From contig JANBPT010000001.1 in assembly GCA_027575765.1 (NCBI GenBank), forward strand, positions 124,001-188,000: a stretch of 64,000 nt of DNA. The letters run 5' to 3'. Below the pieces are notes generated by a model. That model was not told the origin of the DNA. It saw nothing but the letters and a program-made list of their open reading frames with translations, and made no database searches. The position numbers were made by a program, and so were the translations under genes. This document shows positions 29,899 through 55,307 of this stretch, piece after piece; positions within the stretch are counted from its first letter, which is position 1; each line of letters starts with the position of its first letter. Source of the DNA: Tieghemiomyces parasiticus (lineage: Eukaryota; Kickxellomycota; Dimargaritomycetes; Dimargaritales; Dimargaritaceae).

Positions 29899-32800
29899 TC
29901 ACTTTTGACGCATGGTGTGTGTCGGCTTAGAGGCCTTTGGTGGCGTCAATGGTGTCTTCCCGGGCTGCTTTTTGGGTGACCGCTTCATCTTCCCGAGCAA
30001 ACGCTGGGGTACATCACTCTCCGTCTCGTCCTGGCTACCCATTTTGGCCGTCGTTTCGTCGATCCGCGATAGCTGCGCCACGGTGGGCGTAGACTTGTCG
30101 TCGACCCGGAGCGAGAACTTTAAAAAGGCCACGGCTGACGCGGCGGATCCACGTGGGAACGGGTACAAATCGCTGAAGGCCTCCTCCTTCACGGTAGCAC
30201 CCGACGGGTGGAAATGCATGGTGCGGCAGTGGGCCGTCGGTGCGGAGGAAAGCACGAACTTGCCCTGGGCGTTCGGGACGAGGTGCTGCGTCTCCTGCGT
30301 AAGATCAAACGGATCAGTGATGCGGTAGATGGTGGCCCGCAGTTTGGTCACCCATTTGGTCACCTGCGCCTGATTGATGGTCGCTACATCCTGGTACGGT
30401 TTCCGGCCTACCCGTGCGGTGAGGTAGAGCGAAGGCCAGTGGTACTGGATGTTTATAAAATCCTGCAGCGTTAGGTGGTCGACATCTTCCTCGCTACTAC
30501 CAGCACTATTCGGTGGCGGTGCGGGCATCGGTTCGCCGTAGAGCTCGGCCGTGATGCGCGCCTTGAGCCGGTTGAGCTGCTTGGGCGAAGGGTAGTTAAG
30601 GTTGTGATACGGTGAGAGTTTCAGCATCGCACGGGCCGCCTCAGCGTCGTTGTTCAGGTCACCCCACTCCCGGGTTTCGCGGCCGACAAGGTAGGCCGGA
30701 AGACGGTTCACCAGGAAGAGCGGGTCAATGACCGGACTATCGAGAAACACGGCCCGGAAGAGGCCTGGTAAAGGGGAGGAAGTAGGGTAGGAGGGTGGAC
30801 AATGGTAGGTGGTTAATAGTAAGGAATAAAGGTATTAGAGGTATCCCACAGAGCAATGGCTTCCCCACCAGATGGTGATCGATAATGCCCTCCCTATAGA
30901 GCGATGAAGGGTGTTAAATGGCGGTAATTGAGGTATCTATAACAGTGGCATGTTTTGTACCGCCTGTGGGGGGGGGGTCATCCGCGAAACTGACCACTAG
31001 CGGACGGTCAACGAAAATTCATGTCAGTCCTTCACCCGCCTTCTTCCTTTCCTCGGCTTAATAACCAACCTATCCAGCACTGCTCCGGCGTTCTCGAAAT
31101 TCCACCCATCAATCCCTCCTTTCTTTTCGTTTTTAGCTCGGAAGATCCCCGTTTCCACGCTCCACCCATCGATTAAAACTTACCTGGCCTCATATTCATG
31201 GCCGCGGCACCGACAAACCCGCCCCCACCGGTACATTCAAGGGCTAGGTGGTCTTTATCGGCGCGGCCAGTCTCGACCAGCCACTCACTGACACGGATCA
31301 AGTCGTTCACCGCTTCGACCTTCCGCAGCCCCGTCGCAGCCTCGTACCACTGTGTACCCATATCACCACCGCCGCGGAGGTACGGGTAGGCCAGCGTTGT
31401 CCCACGCTTTAGGAGGTCGATGTTCTCCGGGCGGAAACGTGGATGGTTGAGTTCGCCGTAAGCCCCGTGCGAGCGGATGTAGACTTCCTGAGGGAGTGGG
31501 GTGCCACCCTGGGCAACCTCATCACCTCCTGTTGATACTGGCGGCATGCTCACAAGGAGCATCGGAATCTTTATCTCTGGGTTAGCGGTTGTCGGAACAT
31601 TGACTATCTCATACTTGACCTCGCCCACACCAAAGCCTGGCGCAAGGGTCCATGGCAATCGAGCAAGGTAGGTTGTAGGAAGATACATGGGAGGAGGTGA
31701 GGGGGGGGGGGTTCAGGTCAGTATTAGTGCAGTCAAAGTCTCAAGCCGGGCCTTTTATCGGATTATTCTATTCACAGGAACTAAAGTGTCACCCAACGAA
31801 AAAAGCAAAAATTTCGGCACCTACCTTTGATATGCGGCCCCTCAGTGAACTGCACCGCCTTCGTTATCAGATCGTACTGTACCAGGTGCGTGTCGGTGGT
31901 GGGTGACTCATAGTAAAATTGAAGCCCATGACTGTTAATCTGCGGTGTTAGGGTGGGCCACACCGTCACGAATGTTTCGGGTAACGTCACATCAGTTCCC
32001 CTGGCCGGCAGGTCACGAGCGGCCTGAGGTAGCCTGTTGGGCAGGGAGGAATGGTAATCGGCGACGTGACCCGGTAGGTCAAACACGCGTACGAACCCGG
32101 CGCCACCCTGCGTGCCGTAGACAATCAAGTAATCTTGCTGGACGTGAAGCGCGGTGAGGGTCGTACCGGGTGAGAATTCAGTAAACTGGAACAGCTTCGC
32201 AAATGAGCCGCCCTTTGGTTGGTAGACACTGATCTTGGGTCGGTCGTCGGCGGGGTCTTCCGAAGCGACGTAAAAGTGGCCCTATAGCCGATAGGTTTCA
32301 AAAGTGGCAGTGGGAACCAGGGTCAGTATGGAGATGTGGAGTGAATGGGTTAGCCGCACGCGTGTGAGGCCGTCAGTATCACTAGGCAAATTAAATATAA
32401 CTGGCAAAGAGAGTTTCATCAAATGGTGAGGCTTCGAAATGAACCCCGAAGCAAGGGGATATACTTCGGGCATGCCAGCAGGGGTGGTTTAGGAGCAGTG
32501 CAGTTTCCATCGGATGGTCCACCTACCTTGTGATGATCAACGAGCGGGCCGAATCTGGAATGGGGAAGGCACAAGCGCCGCGACCGTTCAATGAGATTCG
32601 GAGCCACGGCATGGCCGCTGGCGTCCGTCATGTGGGTCACGACAATTGTCATTTTCTGGTAGTCCGTTGCAGCGCACACTATGTAGTTCTATATTCGGGG
32701 AGAAGAGTGAACGGCGAGTAGGTAGTACATGCGAGAGCATACATATATACATATAATGTTGAATTACGAAGGCGTGCGTTAGTTATGTCGGATCACCGAG

Positions 32801-34342
32801 GTATGATTACAGAGCGTAGATAGGCCCATTTACACCATTTAGCAGCTAACTGTGGCCCGCCACACACTTACCAAGTCGGTGGTGGCGCTCAACCGCAGAT
32901 CCGATTGGGGGTCGAGCGACGGCGGCAGGTTTATCACGTCCAGCATGGGATACTCCTCATCAAGGCTGTTGATGGCTTTGTTGCCGGGTACATCCTTCAT
33001 CGCTTTGAACGACATGGTCTTTACCCCCGGGCGTTCCCGACCTATGGTCATTAAAAAGTGGACCATCTGCCCATCTGACGACCAGAGAAAATTCGGATCG
33101 CAGATCAGGGTGGCTTTCTAGACACCACAAGGAGGGCAGGGAGAAGAGGCGAACAAGATAAATCGAGGGGTTAGGAAGGGTGACATAGAAAGTGCGGAGG
33201 GTACTCATGAGGCGTTAGAGGATCGGCTTTAAGTCGGAAGGCAGTGACTAGGTAAGGATCGGTAATCCAGCTCGGTGACTTACCATAAGCATATCTCCAG
33301 TGTCGCTGATATTGAAGAAGTGCGTTCTCACGTTGTTCTGACCGGGGCTGCACAGTTGCGGGTCATCGATTAACACGGCGATACTATTACCAGAGGGAGC
33401 GATGCGGACGTCGTAAAGGTATCGGTGCTCCGGGAGGGACGAGGAGTCAAACAGGACCTGCAGGCCGGCGTCGCGGTCGGCGTCCTCCATGCCGTCGGTG
33501 ACGGTCGGACTGGTCACTCCATCAGCAGTTTGGTCTGACGTCATGGCGTCTCCATGGACTGCGGTGGCATCCATAGCGTCTTCGGTAGCCGAGGCGGGCT
33601 CGACGGCATCAGCCGCAGAGTCACCGGTGGCGGTGGGGGTGGTGGCGACACCAGTTGCTTCATCGCCATGTTTTACCGCCGTCTCGTAAATCTCTTGGGC
33701 CTTCGCTGCCGATTCCACGGTATCCTCCTCCGGGGACCACTGGCGCACCACCTGGATCCGCGGCCATGTCTGGGGATTTCTGGTCTCAAAGATACCCGTC
33801 TGGATCACGCGCGTGGAAAACAACCAAGGCCCGTACCGGCCGCGTACCGGCCGTCGGACACGATGGTGGCGATAATACCACCATTGACTCTTGAGTTCGT
33901 TGAACCGCGACTTGGACCACATCTTGCGGCAGCAGATGTGCAAGCCCATGACTTCCCGGTCACGAGCGGCCTGGGCGATGGGGCTGATGGGTGCTTCAAT
34001 TTCCACGTAAGGGTCCGGGTACCGGACGCCGCACGGGAGACGGACCTGTGAGCTACTGCGACCCGGCGGTGGGGCGCGCGTAGACGTGGCCAGGCGGGAA
34101 ACACGATTGTTGCTCCGAGGTTTGTCGTTGTGCGCTGGGTGGTAGGTGAGCTGACCCGTAAGACTGGTCAGTTCCGCCGTGGTCACGTCAATTGGCCGGT
34201 CGCTACCACTGAGAAAGCGCGGCTGGTGGTGGTAGTAAGGAGCCCAGGCTGAAATCGCTGGGCGGTCGAGACGGGTTCGGACGAGCCGGGTCGCCAGTGT
34301 GAAGCGACCAGGCGTGGCAGTCGCACTCAGGAGGCGCAGCAT
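29899..34342 (-). CDS. S9A oligopeptidase B-like protein, predicted catalytically dead
   Basis: Six exons on the minus strand: 33284..34342, 32872..33117, 32527..32688, 31825..32281, 31184..31636 and 29899..30764. All have GT-AG borders and matching phases (0, 0, 0, 1, 1), giving 1080 residues. Residues 1-45 are basic and acid-free, a likely mitochondrial presequence. Residues 80-640 hold the N-terminal and beta-propeller parts of the prolyl oligopeptidase family. Residues 643-1010 are the alpha/beta-hydrolase part: RSHGAYGELNHP, YLRGGGDMGTQWYEA, MNMRPGLFRAVFLDSPVID, REWGD and KWVTKLR. The nucleophile elbow, normally G-x-S-x-G, reads C776-T-G-G-G, so the Ser position is Gly778 (codon GGT, 31229-31227). 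The Asp region reads ARVGRKPYQD and the His region HPSGATV, so Asp and His also seem replaced. An insert lies around 848-900, and a basic Lys/Pro tail follows 1030. A substrate-binding or chaperone-like role is possible. Confidence 0.85.
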
Positions 34343-34879
34343 ATTGTTCGGCGATTGGCGCGATGAACGTTTACGAATGCGCTATATCAAAAGTAGCTAC
34401 AGTGTAGAGGTTCAACGAAAAAATATTGAGAACGTTGTGGACGAGCTGCGAATGACCACGAATGTGATCCATGGCATCACCGGCTAGAAACGTCAGGTTA
34501 CCGTTAAGGTAACGTGGGGAGTGCGGAGCCCAGTGTCAATCCTGGTGACATGGAACTGAGGTACTAATCTTTTTCTTTTTTATTTCGACCAGACTTGGAG
34601 TAAATCGTATGGAATTCGTAAATTCCGAAAGGTCGCTTGCGGTCACGGACCAAGCGGCCTGGGACTGCCACCCACATTGTACCAGTATGTAGGCCAACCA
34701 TGGGAACATACTGCAATCGTATTCGCTCAACTTCTGACCACTTCTCACTCCATGCCAAACCAAGGCGACATTTCTTTACTATCGGCACGCTGATTCCCCT
34801 TCACGTTCTCCCTTCCCTTCCCAGCGCCTCCTGGCTAACCTTCCACTAGCGACCAATTGGGACCACTCCCGTCCTCAAC
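34343..34879. promoter_or_regulatory. divergent intergenic region
   Basis: 537 bases between the starts of the S9A-like gene (minus) and the next gene (plus). The last 60 bases are C/T-rich on the plus strand. No clear TATA box is visible for either gene. Confidence 0.4.
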
Positions 34880-35916
34880 ATGGGCGTCCAGCGCAACCCC
34901 TCCCACGACATTCGGTCCATCTTGACCCGCTTCAACGAAGAACCCCTTCGACCATACACCGTCACGACGACTGCGACGCCTCCTAGTCCATTGGCGGTTA
35001 CCCTTGCCGACCTAGCGGCTACTAAAACTACCGCTGACTCAAGTAACGGCCGCAGCGTACAGTCGACATCCCTACTTTCCAAGCGGTTCCTTCAACGCGG
35101 GCTACGGGCATACGTGGACCCGGAAAAGTCTATGAGAAATACTCGGAGACAATGGACCGAGAGCGACCTGGCGACCCTGAGATACATCCTCAACTATGCG
35201 ACCGCCCACAAACCGGCCGGGATGGATGCTGACGGTGGTAGTGGGATGGTTGGGCCAGCGGATAAAATGGTCCAAGTTATGAGCCGCGTGTTCCTGCCTG
35301 AGTATACGGAGCGGGCTGTCCATAACCAAGTAATCCTCATGAGGCGAGCAAACATGACGTAAGTTGCACTTAGTAGTCCGGATTTTTTGGTTCCGATTTC
35401 CCCTCTCCCTAATACAATACCTAACCTGGGACCCAACCCTACGAATCGAAACTCTTTCCAGGGTCGCAAACAAGCATCCTAATCACTCAACTCCTCCACC
35501 CACCTTACCTGTACAACCTATGCCGCCATGTCTAACCTTTACCACGCACTCTTTGCAGAACACCATTCGCAACAGCTGGGCCGGAGGTACCCCCTAACTC
35601 GTTGGCCGTTGACCAGAACGTGCTGGCATCCCACCAGGGTAATCCCCCGGTCGATGGTGGTATCCCCGACCTTAATGTCTCGCCGCCTTCCCCATCGCAA
35701 CCCGTCATTACCGCACCTCGCCTTCCCGAACCTGGCCATAATGTTGAACCGTCCGCACCGATAACTATCGAGCGAGTCCCTACCGCCCGGGTCTGGTCAA
35801 GGAAGGTCCAGCGTCGTCGGTATCGCGCTGAACCCCGCCCGAGCGATACTGAATCGCGCCGGCGTGCCCTCGATGAACTATTGGGACTACGGCCCCACCC
35901 TTCAGATGGATCCTAA
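34880..35916 (+). CDS. unassigned protein with possible SANT/Myb-like segment
   Basis: Two exons, 34880..35358 and 35559..35916, joined by a 200-bp phase-2 intron, give 278 residues. Residues 91-155 begin RQWTESDLATLRYIL and end ERAVHNQVILMRR. The Trp, the acidic and Leu pattern of a first helix, and the basic last helix resemble a single SANT/Myb repeat, but the middle is longer than usual and the second Trp is absent. The rest is Pro/Ser-rich with a basic patch near 240 (WSRKVQRRRYR), which could be a nuclear signal. The frame continues cleanly over the junction. I am confident of the gene and unsure of the domain. Confidence 0.6.
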
Positions 35917-52233: not shown

Positions 52234-54348
52234 CTAGGCCAGATTGTGCATTCGTTCTAGGGAATCCAGTGTCGAAAGAAGGTCGGCTGCTGGGACCATT
52301 CGTCGCTCGTTAGTATGCCGGATATGCAGCTCTACTTCGCCGTGGAGCAAAAACTGCTTGCCGACCACCACCACCCAGGGGAATCCGATAAGCTCGGTAT
52401 CCTTGAACCGTTGACCGGGGGTAAGCGTCGTGCGGTCGTCAATGATGACCTGGTCTCGCCAGTAAAACGGCTCAGCCGGGACTTCCGTGGCCACCGAGCC
52501 CGGGGTCGATTCATCAACCTCCAAGCCCAGTACATTGGTGGCAGCAGTCGTAGGGGCGATGAGGCTGCGGGTCTGGAGGTGATCGTAGAGCCGTTCGACG
52601 AAACGCCATACGGTACCCTCCGGGTCTGAGACGCTCGCAGGGATCTGCTTGGCCCGAGGTACGATGGGTAGGATACAAAGTCGGTAAGGTGCGATGGCCG
52701 GCGGCCAGAAGATCCCTCGGACGTCGTGGTTGCGGTCGGCCACCGCGGCGACGATACGTGAGAGACCGATGCCGTAGCAGCCCATTTCGATGGGCGACCC
52801 CTCGGTAGTGGTGCCAGCCGACGTGTTGCGGATGAGAGCGCCTAGAGGTTGCGAGTACTTGGTACCCAAGTAGAAGGTGTGACCCACTTCGATGGTGGTT
52901 ACGGCCTCAATCGGGCTAGCCATCGGGGTGGGCGATTCGGCATGACAAGTCGGACAGAGGTCACCAGCCTGGATTTGAACCAAATCAGCACCGTGGACCG
53001 AGACGACCCCGGCAGCCTTGCCCTGCAGGCGCTCATCAGTCAACTTGGTACCTTGGGTCCCGGCCGATAGAAGCTGCCCGTCGATCAGGAGTTGACACGG
53101 TAAAGGATGGGCCAGGCTCGTCCGCAAGGAGTTGGCCGGGGTCAAATCCGATTGTGAGGAACTTGAAGTGGGGCCACTACCCAGGGCCTCAGCTAGCTGG
53201 TCTAGGGTATACGTGGTCACGTCGTGCTCGCTGTCGGTAAGGTGCGGTGTCAGTTTGTGCGAGTTCAACGACCGGTCTTGGTGCACCACCGTCACTAGGG
53301 CCCGGGTAGTGGCCGCATGAGGATCGGCGCCGGTAGGCCCAGAATCGTGGCCCCGGACGAGAGCGACGTTTACAGTGAAGGGTAGTTTGGTCAGGGTGGC
53401 GAGTAGTACATGGTCGACGTGGCCATGGTGAAGGCCATCTGCGAACGTTAGGAGGAGCGGCCAGGCCTCCTCTAGGGCAATGGACAGGGGGCTCGTCGTT
53501 AAGTCAGACTTGGCATCAGGCTGGACGACCCCGGTGGCGCACTCGGCGTTGGATGCATACCGGCACCGCGAGCAAGTTAACACGTGGTCCTCGCCCGTAG
53601 CCGACGGATAGTGGAACTCGTGTGATAAGGTGCCGCCGATATTCCCACTGTCGGCACGGGCCTCCACAAAGGCCAGGCCGATCTGCTTAAAGAAGTACCG
53701 ATACAACTCCCGCACCTCGTTGTAGGTGCGCAGGGCGCCGGACTGGTCGGCGTCGAAGCTATAGAGGTCCTTCATGACAAACTCACGGGCCCGCAGTAAT
53801 CCGGCCCGGGGGCGCAGCTCGTCACGGAACTTGCGGCCGACCTGGTACAGCCGAAGCGGGAGCTGGCGGTAGGACGAAACGTCCCCAGCCACCAGGTGGG
53901 TTATCTCCTCCTCGTGAGTTGGACCCAGGCAGTACGGTGTGGCCTTACGGTCAGTCAAGCGGAATAGTTCGCGGCCCGTGGTCTCCCACCGCCCCGTCTG
54001 TTTCCATAGGTCAGCGGCGAGTAGGTTTGGCAGCGCTAGTTTGTGGGCACCGCCGTGGTGGCCCATGGTCCGGTCGACAAGAGCCTCAAGGCGGGCAAGG
54101 ACCCGCTGTCCTAGCGGCAGCAGGGAATAAATCCCTGTGCTGGACACCCGGATCAGGCCGGCCCGGACGAGCAGACGATGGCCCGCGGAAGTGGTATCGA
54201 GGGAAGGTCCCGATTCAGGTTTGAGCGTGGGCGCAAATAGCCGCGAGAGGTGCTGCCGGTAGGTATGGAGGGTGCGGGCGGCCAGAGGGCGAGTTCCCCG
54301 GACGGTGGGGGTCCTAAGGGGCCGCACACGGTCGACAAGTCGCAACAT
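52234..54348 (-). CDS. prolyl-tRNA synthetase, bacterial/organellar type
   Basis: Single exon, 704 residues. The frame is open further upstream, but the first ATG is at 54348. It starts with MLRLVDRVRPLRTPTVRGTR, a basic presequence free of Glu, as expected for mitochondrial import. The class II catalytic core shows the start STGIYSLLPLGQRV (about 70-83), GPTHEEE (142-148) and motif 2 with KFRDELRPRAGLLRAREF (173-190). Motif 3 is GCYGIGLSRIVAAVADRNHD, followed by GIFWPPAIAPY and the anticodon-binding end. Two Cys pairs, C259-x2-C262 and a later CPTC, flank the central insertion, typical of bacterial-type enzymes. The insertion region seems larger and Ser/Thr-rich compared with E. coli (572 residues). 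It attaches proline to mitochondrial tRNA-Pro. The starts of this gene and BUD6 diverge. Confidence 0.94.
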   Translation of the reverse strand: MLRLVDRVRPLRTPTVRGTRPLAARTLHTYRQHLSRLFAPTLKPESGPSLDTTSAGHRLLVRAGLIRVSSTGIYSLLPLGQRVLARLEALVDRTMGHHGGAHKLALPNLLAADLWKQTGRWETTGRELFRLTDRKATPYCLGPTHEEEITHLVAGDVSSYRQLPLRLYQVGRKFRDELRPRAGLLRAREFVMKDLYSFDADQSGALRTYNEVRELYRYFFKQIGLAFVEARADSGNIGGTLSHEFHYPSATGEDHVLTCSRCRYASNAECATGVVQPDAKSDLTTSPLSIALEEAWPLLLTFADGLHHGHVDHVLLATLTKLPFTVNVALVRGHDSGPTGADPHAATTRALVTVVHQDRSLNSHKLTPHLTDSEHDVTTYTLDQLAEALGSGPTSSSSQSDLTPANSLRTSLAHPLPCQLLIDGQLLSAGTQGTKLTDERLQGKAAGVVSVHGADLVQIQAGDLCPTCHAESPTPMASPIEAVTTIEVGHTFYLGTKYSQPLGALIRNTSAGTTTEGSPIEMGCYGIGLSRIVAAVADRNHDVRGIFWPPAIAPYRLCILPIVPRAKQIPASVSDPEGTVWRFVERLYDHLQTRSLIAPTTAATNVLGLEVDESTPGSVATEVPAEPFYWRDQVIIDDRTTLTPGQRFKDTELIGFPWVVVVGKQFLLHGEVELHIRHTNERRMVPAADLLSTLDSLERMHNLA

Positions 54349-55307
54349 CGTTAAGAGCAGCAGAATGGACTGAGTGGGAAGCGGCGAATGTGTATTGAGA
54401 GGAAATGCAGCGTGCCCTCGAGACCTGAGGGGGCAAAGGCGATCAGGAGGGTGTGCACCCGCCTTGCAGACCCATCTCCGGGCGGAGAGGGCCACTTAAG
54501 GAAATTCTGGACTATATCGCTAGTCCAACCACTACGCCGGAAAGGCAGCGAAGGCCACGTCCCGCAGCAGATATTCCAATGAGGGGACAGCCCGATCCTC
54601 CTCGGGGAGCGCATATAGCAGGTCAGCGATCATACCCCTAACGTGGCGGTTGGTTGGCCAGATTGCTGACGGGGAGCAGATATGCGGGGTCGTATGGTGA
54701 GCTAACCCTTGATCAGCCCGCGTCCGCTTTTTCGCACTCCGCTCGAAACCTCTGAGGGGAAAGTGCCCAGCGCCGCGATGTGTACGTCAGGCGGGCCGAG
54801 TGGCAGCCTGGCCAAGGCTACAGTCCTGGCGGGTGGGGGTGGCCAGCTAGTGTCGATCGAGGACCTCGTGGGCCGGCCAACGGACCTCAGCAGCGGCGTT
54901 CGCACCTCCCGCTACAACGCCCCGATACCAGGTTCCTTGTGCCGCGGACGCCACTATTAGGCCCAGGGATGTTGAGAGTCCAGGGAGACCTGGCGCCCAA
55001 GCTCTTTGTCTCTTAAACAGTCTCGGGTGTCACTTGCCCGTCGACAGCAGTTCCCCTCTCCCCTCATTTCCGCACCAGTCCGACCGGGATTGACCCCTTC
55101 CCCCAACCCCCTTCCTAGCATTGCCCACCCTCACCGTCTCAGCCTAGTGGTGTCTTACCCATTCCCCCTGCTTTTGGACCTTCCCCAGCTCGACCCCCAA
55201 TCCCCGCCTCATCCCCCAACCATCCGACCACATAGCCACCCGGGCACTCTTTCGACATCCCTTCTCCCTTGTGTAACTCCCTACTTCACCTCGTTCCCGG
55301 GCCACCC
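54349..55307. promoter_or_regulatory. divergent intergenic region with BUD6 leader
   Basis: 959 bases between the two starts. Bases 55020-55305 are strongly C/T-rich on the plus strand, forming the BUD6 leader. No TATA-like box stands out on either side. Confidence 0.45.

Follow-up and report, generated by a model that had tools for sequence, protein, structure and literature searches.

The window analysed here, 64,000 nt of a contig of the fungus Tieghemiomyces parasiticus, carries on its minus strand (34342-29899) a gene of the oligopeptidase B (OpB) branch of the S9A peptidase family, with six exons, GT-AG junctions and a 3243-nt CDS encoding 1080 residues; all of the landmarks that an initial annotation had quoted were found in the protein. 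Exon 1 (33284..34342, minus strand, as for all features below), an open frame with a GT donor at its 3′ side, holds the start codon, a likely targeting stretch, the N-terminal part with an Ala/Asp/Thr-rich insert, and the first propeller strands. The propeller continues through exon 2 (32872..33117), which has GT-AG introns on both homologous contigs, exon 3 (32527..32688), with VDHHK at its end, and exon 4 (31825..32281), containing the conserved LPE motif. Exon 5 (31184..31636) encodes the hydrolase domain with RSHGAYG, YLRGGGDMGTQW and the nucleophile elbow, LECTGGGG, and exon 6 (29899..30764) the remaining hydrolase domain, including the loops expected to bear the catalytic Asp and His (D- and H-loops), a basic C-terminal tail and the stop codon. 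A copy with 93% DNA identity lies on the homologous contig C821 (IWQ60_001547), where the frame is open and GT-AG is found at 5/5 introns; its public protein (1079 aa) has the same gene model and shows 95% identity across residues 300-1030, the part used in the search. The first 45 residues contain seven K/R and one D/E, and have a hydrophobic moment of 0.39 vs 0.69 for the genome's own OpB; a mitochondrial location, as initially proposed, is plausible but weakly indicated.

At the position of the nucleophile (S532 of Serratia OpB), codon 778 reads GGT (31227..31229), as first reported. Gly occupied this column in 112/112 trial alignments (64/64 and 48/48) and in both copies, so that Ser, Cys and Thr were found there in none, while Ser was present in 121/121 OpB relatives compared. 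The column of the oxyanion-hole Tyr (Y452 of Serratia OpB) is filled by His698 (CAC, 31468..31470) in 112/112 alignments and again in both copies, and by Tyr in 121/121 relatives. Because both residues are replaced, cutting of peptides by the family mechanism would be impossible. Loss of the oxyanion Tyr had been missed initially, and is as firm as that of the Ser. Like OpB, the Gly778 protein retains the Glu of P1 specificity, Glu822 (GAA, 30676..30678; 112/112 alignments), whose counterpart E576 has a P1-binding role in Serratia OpB (PMC9917282), and the P1-lining Tyr701, counterpart of Tyr455. However, another P1-lining residue, F558 of OpB, is replaced by Val804, and position 460, acidic in 117/121 relatives, is His706; the pocket is therefore not simply conserved.

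The hydrolase domain was recognized by PF00326 (74.6 bits vs a cut-off of 22.6; residues 708-849). The Pfam model of the S9A N-terminal propeller, PF02897, had no match in the protein at E 0.001, and in a search of the fungus's own genome it found the other two S9A gene pairs only. OpB profiles built from 28 and 120 sequences aligned from residue 289-290 onward, and a predicted model superposed on OpB structures over residues 86-1011. A two-domain fold, propeller plus alpha/beta-hydrolase, is predicted to be kept, and together with the hydrolase core motifs it would be shared with OpBs of Serratia (7ywp), Leishmania (2xe4), Trypanosoma (4bp9) and the fungus itself. Many prolyl endopeptidases and cyclases matched at equal Z, so the model alone does not say OpB. 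The structure prediction that had been suggested as a check gives an intact predicted fold but low confidence for the D- and H-loops in both models made; the second (32 fungal sequences; pLDDT 60.8, pTM 0.65) was poorer and left these loops unsettled. Unlike OpB, the Gly778 protein has enlarged D- and H-loops, a basic C-terminal tail and an extended N-terminal part that includes a low-complexity insert. A catalytic residue is lost here within a conserved predicted fold, as is characteristic of maintained pseudoenzymes.

The genome contains two other S9A gene pairs. Its canonical OpB (C476/C634) has a coding region of one open frame; given the five introns of the Gly778 gene, against none in that coding region, and an identity of ~25%, a retrocopy of the local OpB was rejected. 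The other pair (C482/C525) is a second decayed gene with an 805-aa frame, present on both homologous contigs (dN/dS 0.132). It keeps Ser625 at the nucleophile column (47/48 alignments), while the Asp column holds Gly in 48/48, the His column a gap in 36/48 and a non-His residue in the other 12, and the oxyanion Tyr column Asp544 in 48/48. In the tree, the Gly778 protein grouped with Dimargaritales OpBs with support that is not strong (82/84), and in a quick 36-row tree it fell on the fungal side, not with Dimargaritales in particular; the C482/C525 gene was placed with bacterial OpBs, although one fungal clade was not rejected (p-AU 0.278). Both placements are unsafe owing to long branches. 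We do not claim a bacterial origin for the C482/C525 gene. That the two decayed genes share an origin appears disfavoured (p-AU 0.054). Prokaryote genomes searched with the fungus's OpB gave 13 matching stretches, of which none was a relative. A protein search found no orthologue outside the species, its four matches being the C821 copy and three distant S9 relatives (25-35% identity), and a second returned only the query itself; both also missed the genome's own OpB and would miss diverged orthologues, so that this is weak evidence. Maintenance is accordingly read from two copies of one species, no orthologue having been found on which long-term persistence could rest.

These observations suggest, with a probability of roughly 0.6, that the gene encodes a maintained OpB-like pseudopeptidase without a nucleophile, which likely binds peptides or partner proteins and does not cut them. 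From the initial proposal of a maintained pseudopeptidase, the loss of the nucleophile in both copies, the predicted intact fold and the purifying selection on both domains stand; the triple replacement does not. Between the two copies, overall dN/dS was 0.365 (purifying selection, p 3e-8), and, in the domain-wise check proposed at the outset, it was 0.27 in both the propeller and the hydrolase (p 1e-5 and 6e-4 vs neutrality). Since the core is under selection despite the missing Ser, a binding role is likely.

The same data have to be weighed against the reading, unlikely in our estimate, that the gene is on its way out, with catalysis lost, constraint relaxing and a frame that is intact merely because the loss is recent. 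Relaxation of constraint is real, as dN/dS of the canonical OpB is 0.052, ~7-fold lower (Fisher p 3e-7), and even the second decayed paralogue has a lower value than the Gly778 gene. Across residues 1-300, 32/47 changes are nonsynonymous and neutrality is not rejected (p 0.19), and the branch of the protein is very long (5.28 changes per column). However, in addition to the constraint on the core domains, only 2/8 changes are nonsynonymous in residues 700-860, around the dead elbow (dN/dS 0.11), and both copies have GT-AG at all five introns, although the intron sequences have diverged by 10%. The statement that the gene is not decaying thus holds for the frame and the core, where constraint is nevertheless looser than in canonical OpB, and does not extend to the N-terminal 300 residues.

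If the gene is a maintained pseudopeptidase, its propeller and inter-domain cavity could still admit a basic peptide or protein surface and retain it uncleaved. The likeliest user would be a partner in the same compartment, e.g., the fungus's canonical OpB; alternatively, it might be a client protein like those for which human PREPL acts without need of its hydrolase activity. Non-peptidase members of the wider family exist: DPP6 and DPP10, animal S9B pseudopeptidases that are membrane-anchored, have no peptidase activity and act through partner binding. They resemble the Gly778 protein as maintained S9 relatives without peptidase activity, although they belong to another subfamily and to animals. 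Closer by family is PREPL (7obm, 8rfb), an S9A relative found by sequence search (E 2.4e-16). One study describes a PREPL function that persists when the catalytic Ser is removed, and links the protein to mitochondria (PMC11385081); the same study, however, reports hydrolase activity and a requirement for Ser559 in the mitochondrial role (PMC11385081), which counts against a non-catalytic role there. Ser559 is present in PREPL, whereas Ser is naturally absent from the Gly778 protein, and the likeness is one of sequence and not a comparison of function. As PREPL illustrates, S9A proteins may have roles for which the active site is not needed, but in PREPL such a role is difficult to disentangle from hydrolysis. 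An S9A protein that naturally lacks the nucleophile, in a fungus that also has a canonical OpB, would allow a cleaner look at what propeller and cavity do through binding alone. In fungi, Ecm14 is an M14 pseudopeptidase that is evolutionarily kept, secreted, conserved across ascomycetes and without detectable activity (PMC7706225). It parallels the pseudopeptidase proposed here, but belongs to an unrelated metallopeptidase family, while the Gly778 protein is known from one species.

The C482/C525 gene is also an S9A relative that has lost catalytic residues and occurs on both homologous contigs; it differs in keeping Ser without Asp and His, while the Gly778 protein lacks Ser. It is conceivable, though quite unlikely, that the three gene pairs form an OpB set in which two dead relatives, whose losses complement each other (Ser; Asp and His), act on the one live enzyme as its regulatory or peptide-presenting subunits. 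If true, no such pseudoenzyme system would have been described before in the S9A family.

All three triad residues had been called apparently replaced; only the Ser loss is proven, and as a proven statement the triple replacement was rejected, since Asp may survive as Asp918 (30388..30390) and the His position is method-dependent. For the VGRKPYQD loop, in which Asp was said to be replaced, the first set of MAFFT trials (n = 64) put P915 (36), R913 (21), a gap (4) or V919 (3) on the Asp column, and the second (n = 48) P915 (33), R913 (8), a gap (6) or E884 (1), with D918 there in 0/112. Full-length profile-HMM alignments, in contrast, placed D918 (D917 of the C821 copy) on it in 5/5 readable of 6, while a C-terminal fragment against one profile gave Y916, and hhalign a gap. 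Profile-HMMs thus favour a surviving Asp at Asp918, which is possible but unproven. The proposed replacement of His by Ala (S-G-A) was not recovered, with Ala on the His column in 0/112 trials. Instead, the first set gave D1015 (36), H976 (19), H978 (5), P979 (2), H971 (1) and K1033 (1), the second D1015 (32), H976 (10), H978 (4) and H971 (2). A four-row alignment with Dimargaritales OpBs, in which an APAA..R motif was common to the protein and the fungus's own OpB, put Lys985 (K984 of the C821 copy) on this column. His971, His976 and His978 (30208..30231) nevertheless lie near the expected His loop, in a candidate stretch with pLDDT <50 over most of its length in both models. Should Asp918 and a His have been retained, the active site could have been remodelled. 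A hydrolase of this kind, in which another residue, or water activated by a surviving His or Asp, attacks and yields a weak esterase or different activity, is very unlikely. Besides Asp918 and the three His, Cys776 and Thr777 directly before Gly778 favour it, as does the possibility that residues have migrated in certain pseudoenzymes (PMC10211241). Against it stand the absence of Ser, Cys or Thr from the nucleophile column, the loss of the oxyanion Tyr and the low confidence of both loops.

That a normal OpB is masked by a gene-model or sequencing artefact is barely credible and was rejected: apart from GGT being one base from AGT, as noted initially, nothing was found for it, and the other contig has the identical Gly and His, which also disposes of a sequencing error at the Ser codon, while the public annotation is the same protein and the canonical OpB a separate locus pair.

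In titles and abstract beginnings of the open-licence literature, no fungal S9A pseudopeptidase was found, though a prior mention may exist, and no paper on the T. parasiticus genome was found in that literature. A survey of fungal serine proteases excluded likely inactive homologues (PMC5567314), and passages of an Aspergillus niger survey count 91 non-peptidase homologues and name no S9A case (PMC7804941). The UniRef name of the protein, 'Prolyl endopeptidase-like', carries a warning for annotation, as it is attached to a protein without the cutting residue.

The S9A gene (window 34342-29899, minus strand) comprises six exons (34342-33284, 33117-32872, 32688-32527, 32281-31825, 31636-31184 and 30764-29899) separated by GT-AG introns throughout, and its coding sequence of 3243 nt specifies 1080 residues. 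Tieghemiomyces parasiticus belongs to the Dimargaritales, Kickxellomycotina, and its genome is assembled in 1363 contigs totaling 46.5 Mb; one of these, C821, aligns with the window over 8 kb, with 93% identity. The C821 copy keeps the frame and has five introns at equal places, all GT-AG, with a single three-base gap between its coding part and the window gene, in agreement with the exons, splice sites and frame described as intact in the initial annotation. Two further S9A genes of the genome are likewise paired across contigs, and we infer that the window contig and C821 are homologous haplotype contigs. The protein of the C821 copy is publicly recorded as IWQ60_001547 (1079 aa), a 'hypothetical protein' at NCBI; the UniRef label 'Prolyl endopeptidase-like' sits on a protein without the catalytic Ser. 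The window gene is real and intact, and encodes an S9A protein lacking the nucleophile. The initial headline, an S9A protein with its catalytic residues replaced, was correct in kind and overstated in detail.

Functional columns were read with MAFFT in four modes on random sets of relatives, with the fungus's own canonical oligopeptidase B (OpB) and the functions assigned to residues of Serratia OpB (PMC9917282) as references. The reported replacement of Ser by Gly778 was borne out in every trial alignment (Ser532 column, 64/64 and 48/48), with the same counts for His698 on the oxyanion Tyr452 column and Glu822 on the P1 Glu576 column, while Tyr701 and Val804 occupied the Tyr455 and Phe558 columns in 48/48 trials of the second set; because the sets overlap, these counts measure alignment stability and are not independent evidence. 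A single control alignment covered 121 of 124 retrieved proteins (the best 120 of 7856 matches plus the relative P0002), excluding the C821 protein and the divergent P0003 and P0004. Ser, Asp, the oxyanion Tyr, Tyr455, Phe558 and Glu576 were each present in 121/121 relatives, and His in 120/121, with a gap in one.

The claim that Asp and His are also replaced was not confirmed, since the residue on each column shifts with alignment method and the loops are modeled with low confidence. MAFFT trials placed Pro915, Arg913, Val919, Glu884 or a gap on the Asp column, and hhalign a gap. Profile-HMMs of 28, 120 and 3 OpBs placed Asp917 of the C821 copy there, the 120- and 3-sequence profiles placed Asp918 of the window protein, and a C-terminal fragment against the 28-sequence profile gave Tyr916. 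The His column fell on H970, H975 or K984 of the C821 protein (window H971, H976 and K985) in alignments of 88 rows, 32 rows and 4 rows with Dimargaritales OpBs, respectively, and mostly on Asp1015 or His976 in the trials. The 3-sequence profile pairs the region around His971 with residues ahead of the last strand, which disfavors His971 as the catalytic His. A first structure model ends a strand at residue 967, three positions ahead of H970, but gives 970-983 a pLDDT <50; in a second, pLDDT is <50 at 909-920, 959-974 and 976-999. Both loops are enlarged and remodeled, and the catalytic Asp may survive.

Selection between the window gene and the C821 copy was assessed by NG86 counts, in regions that we picked from the domain layout and with p values uncorrected for region number. 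Nonsynonymous changes were below neutral expectation in the whole gene (dN/dS 0.365; 74/137 changes, p 3e-8), in residues 301-660 (0.272; 24/50, p 1e-5) and 661-1000 (0.273; 14/30, p 6e-4), the values for the propeller and hydrolase parts thus not being near 1, and in residues 700-860 (0.106; 2/8, p 0.004). Residues 1-300 showed no significant departure from neutrality between the copies (32/47, p 0.19); this N-terminal third (window 33284-34342) contains an Ala/Asp/Thr-rich insert at ~225-290, the remainder of the protein being constrained. By the same counts, canonical OpB gave 0.052 and a second decayed S9A gene 0.132. The core of the window protein is constrained, yet less so than a working peptidase.

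With the nucleophile and oxyanion Tyr absent, the acyl-enzyme route of S9A, as known from the family mechanism, would be closed. Retention of the P1 Glu and Tyr, a propeller predicted to be intact and the constraint near the dead elbow point to continued use of the cavity, for binding. PREPL with its Ser replaced retains its trans-Golgi role and loses its mitochondrial role (PMC11385081), and T. cruzi OpB is a dimer (PMC3261901). By analogy, possible roles of the window protein are to hold a client or to form a pair with canonical OpB. Both N-termini are basic, the first 45 residues carrying seven K/R in the window protein and eight in canonical OpB, with one acid in each; the N-terminal amphipathic moment is weaker in the former (0.39 vs 0.69).

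No orthologue outside T. parasiticus was found among 5.8 billion proteins, in searches that also missed the genome's own OpB, so diverged orthologues would escape them. A three-sequence profile search, whose length limits left the C821 protein out, had fungal and bacterial OpBs among the 120 matches listed. Canonical OpB (837 aa by public annotation) is a single open frame with a complete triad, at 3023-5602 of L027 and 2922-5501 of L028, stretches from contigs C476/C634. The second decayed gene, also a single open frame (805 aa), lies at C482:41293-43332 and on C525 (L029 2647-5064, L030 4936-2519). One of its two copies has Ser625 on the nucleophile column in 47/48 alignments, Gly711 on the Asp column and Asp544 on the oxyanion Tyr column in 48/48 each, and on the His column a gap (36/48) or Pro or Ser (12/48); the Ser lies in an altered elbow, TLSPDEGL. 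This gene falls beside bacterial OpBs in the tree, an unsafe placement given its long branch: a tree with all fungal rows as one group is not rejected (p-AU 0.278), and one uniting both decayed genes in a clade is borderline (p-AU 0.054).

In the window, ~540 intergenic bases (34343-34880) separate the S9A gene from a plus-strand open frame with its first ATG near 34880 (start MGVQRNPSHDIRSILTRF). A minus-strand open frame at 52234-54495 resembles, by eye, a mitochondrial-type prolyl-tRNA synthetase.
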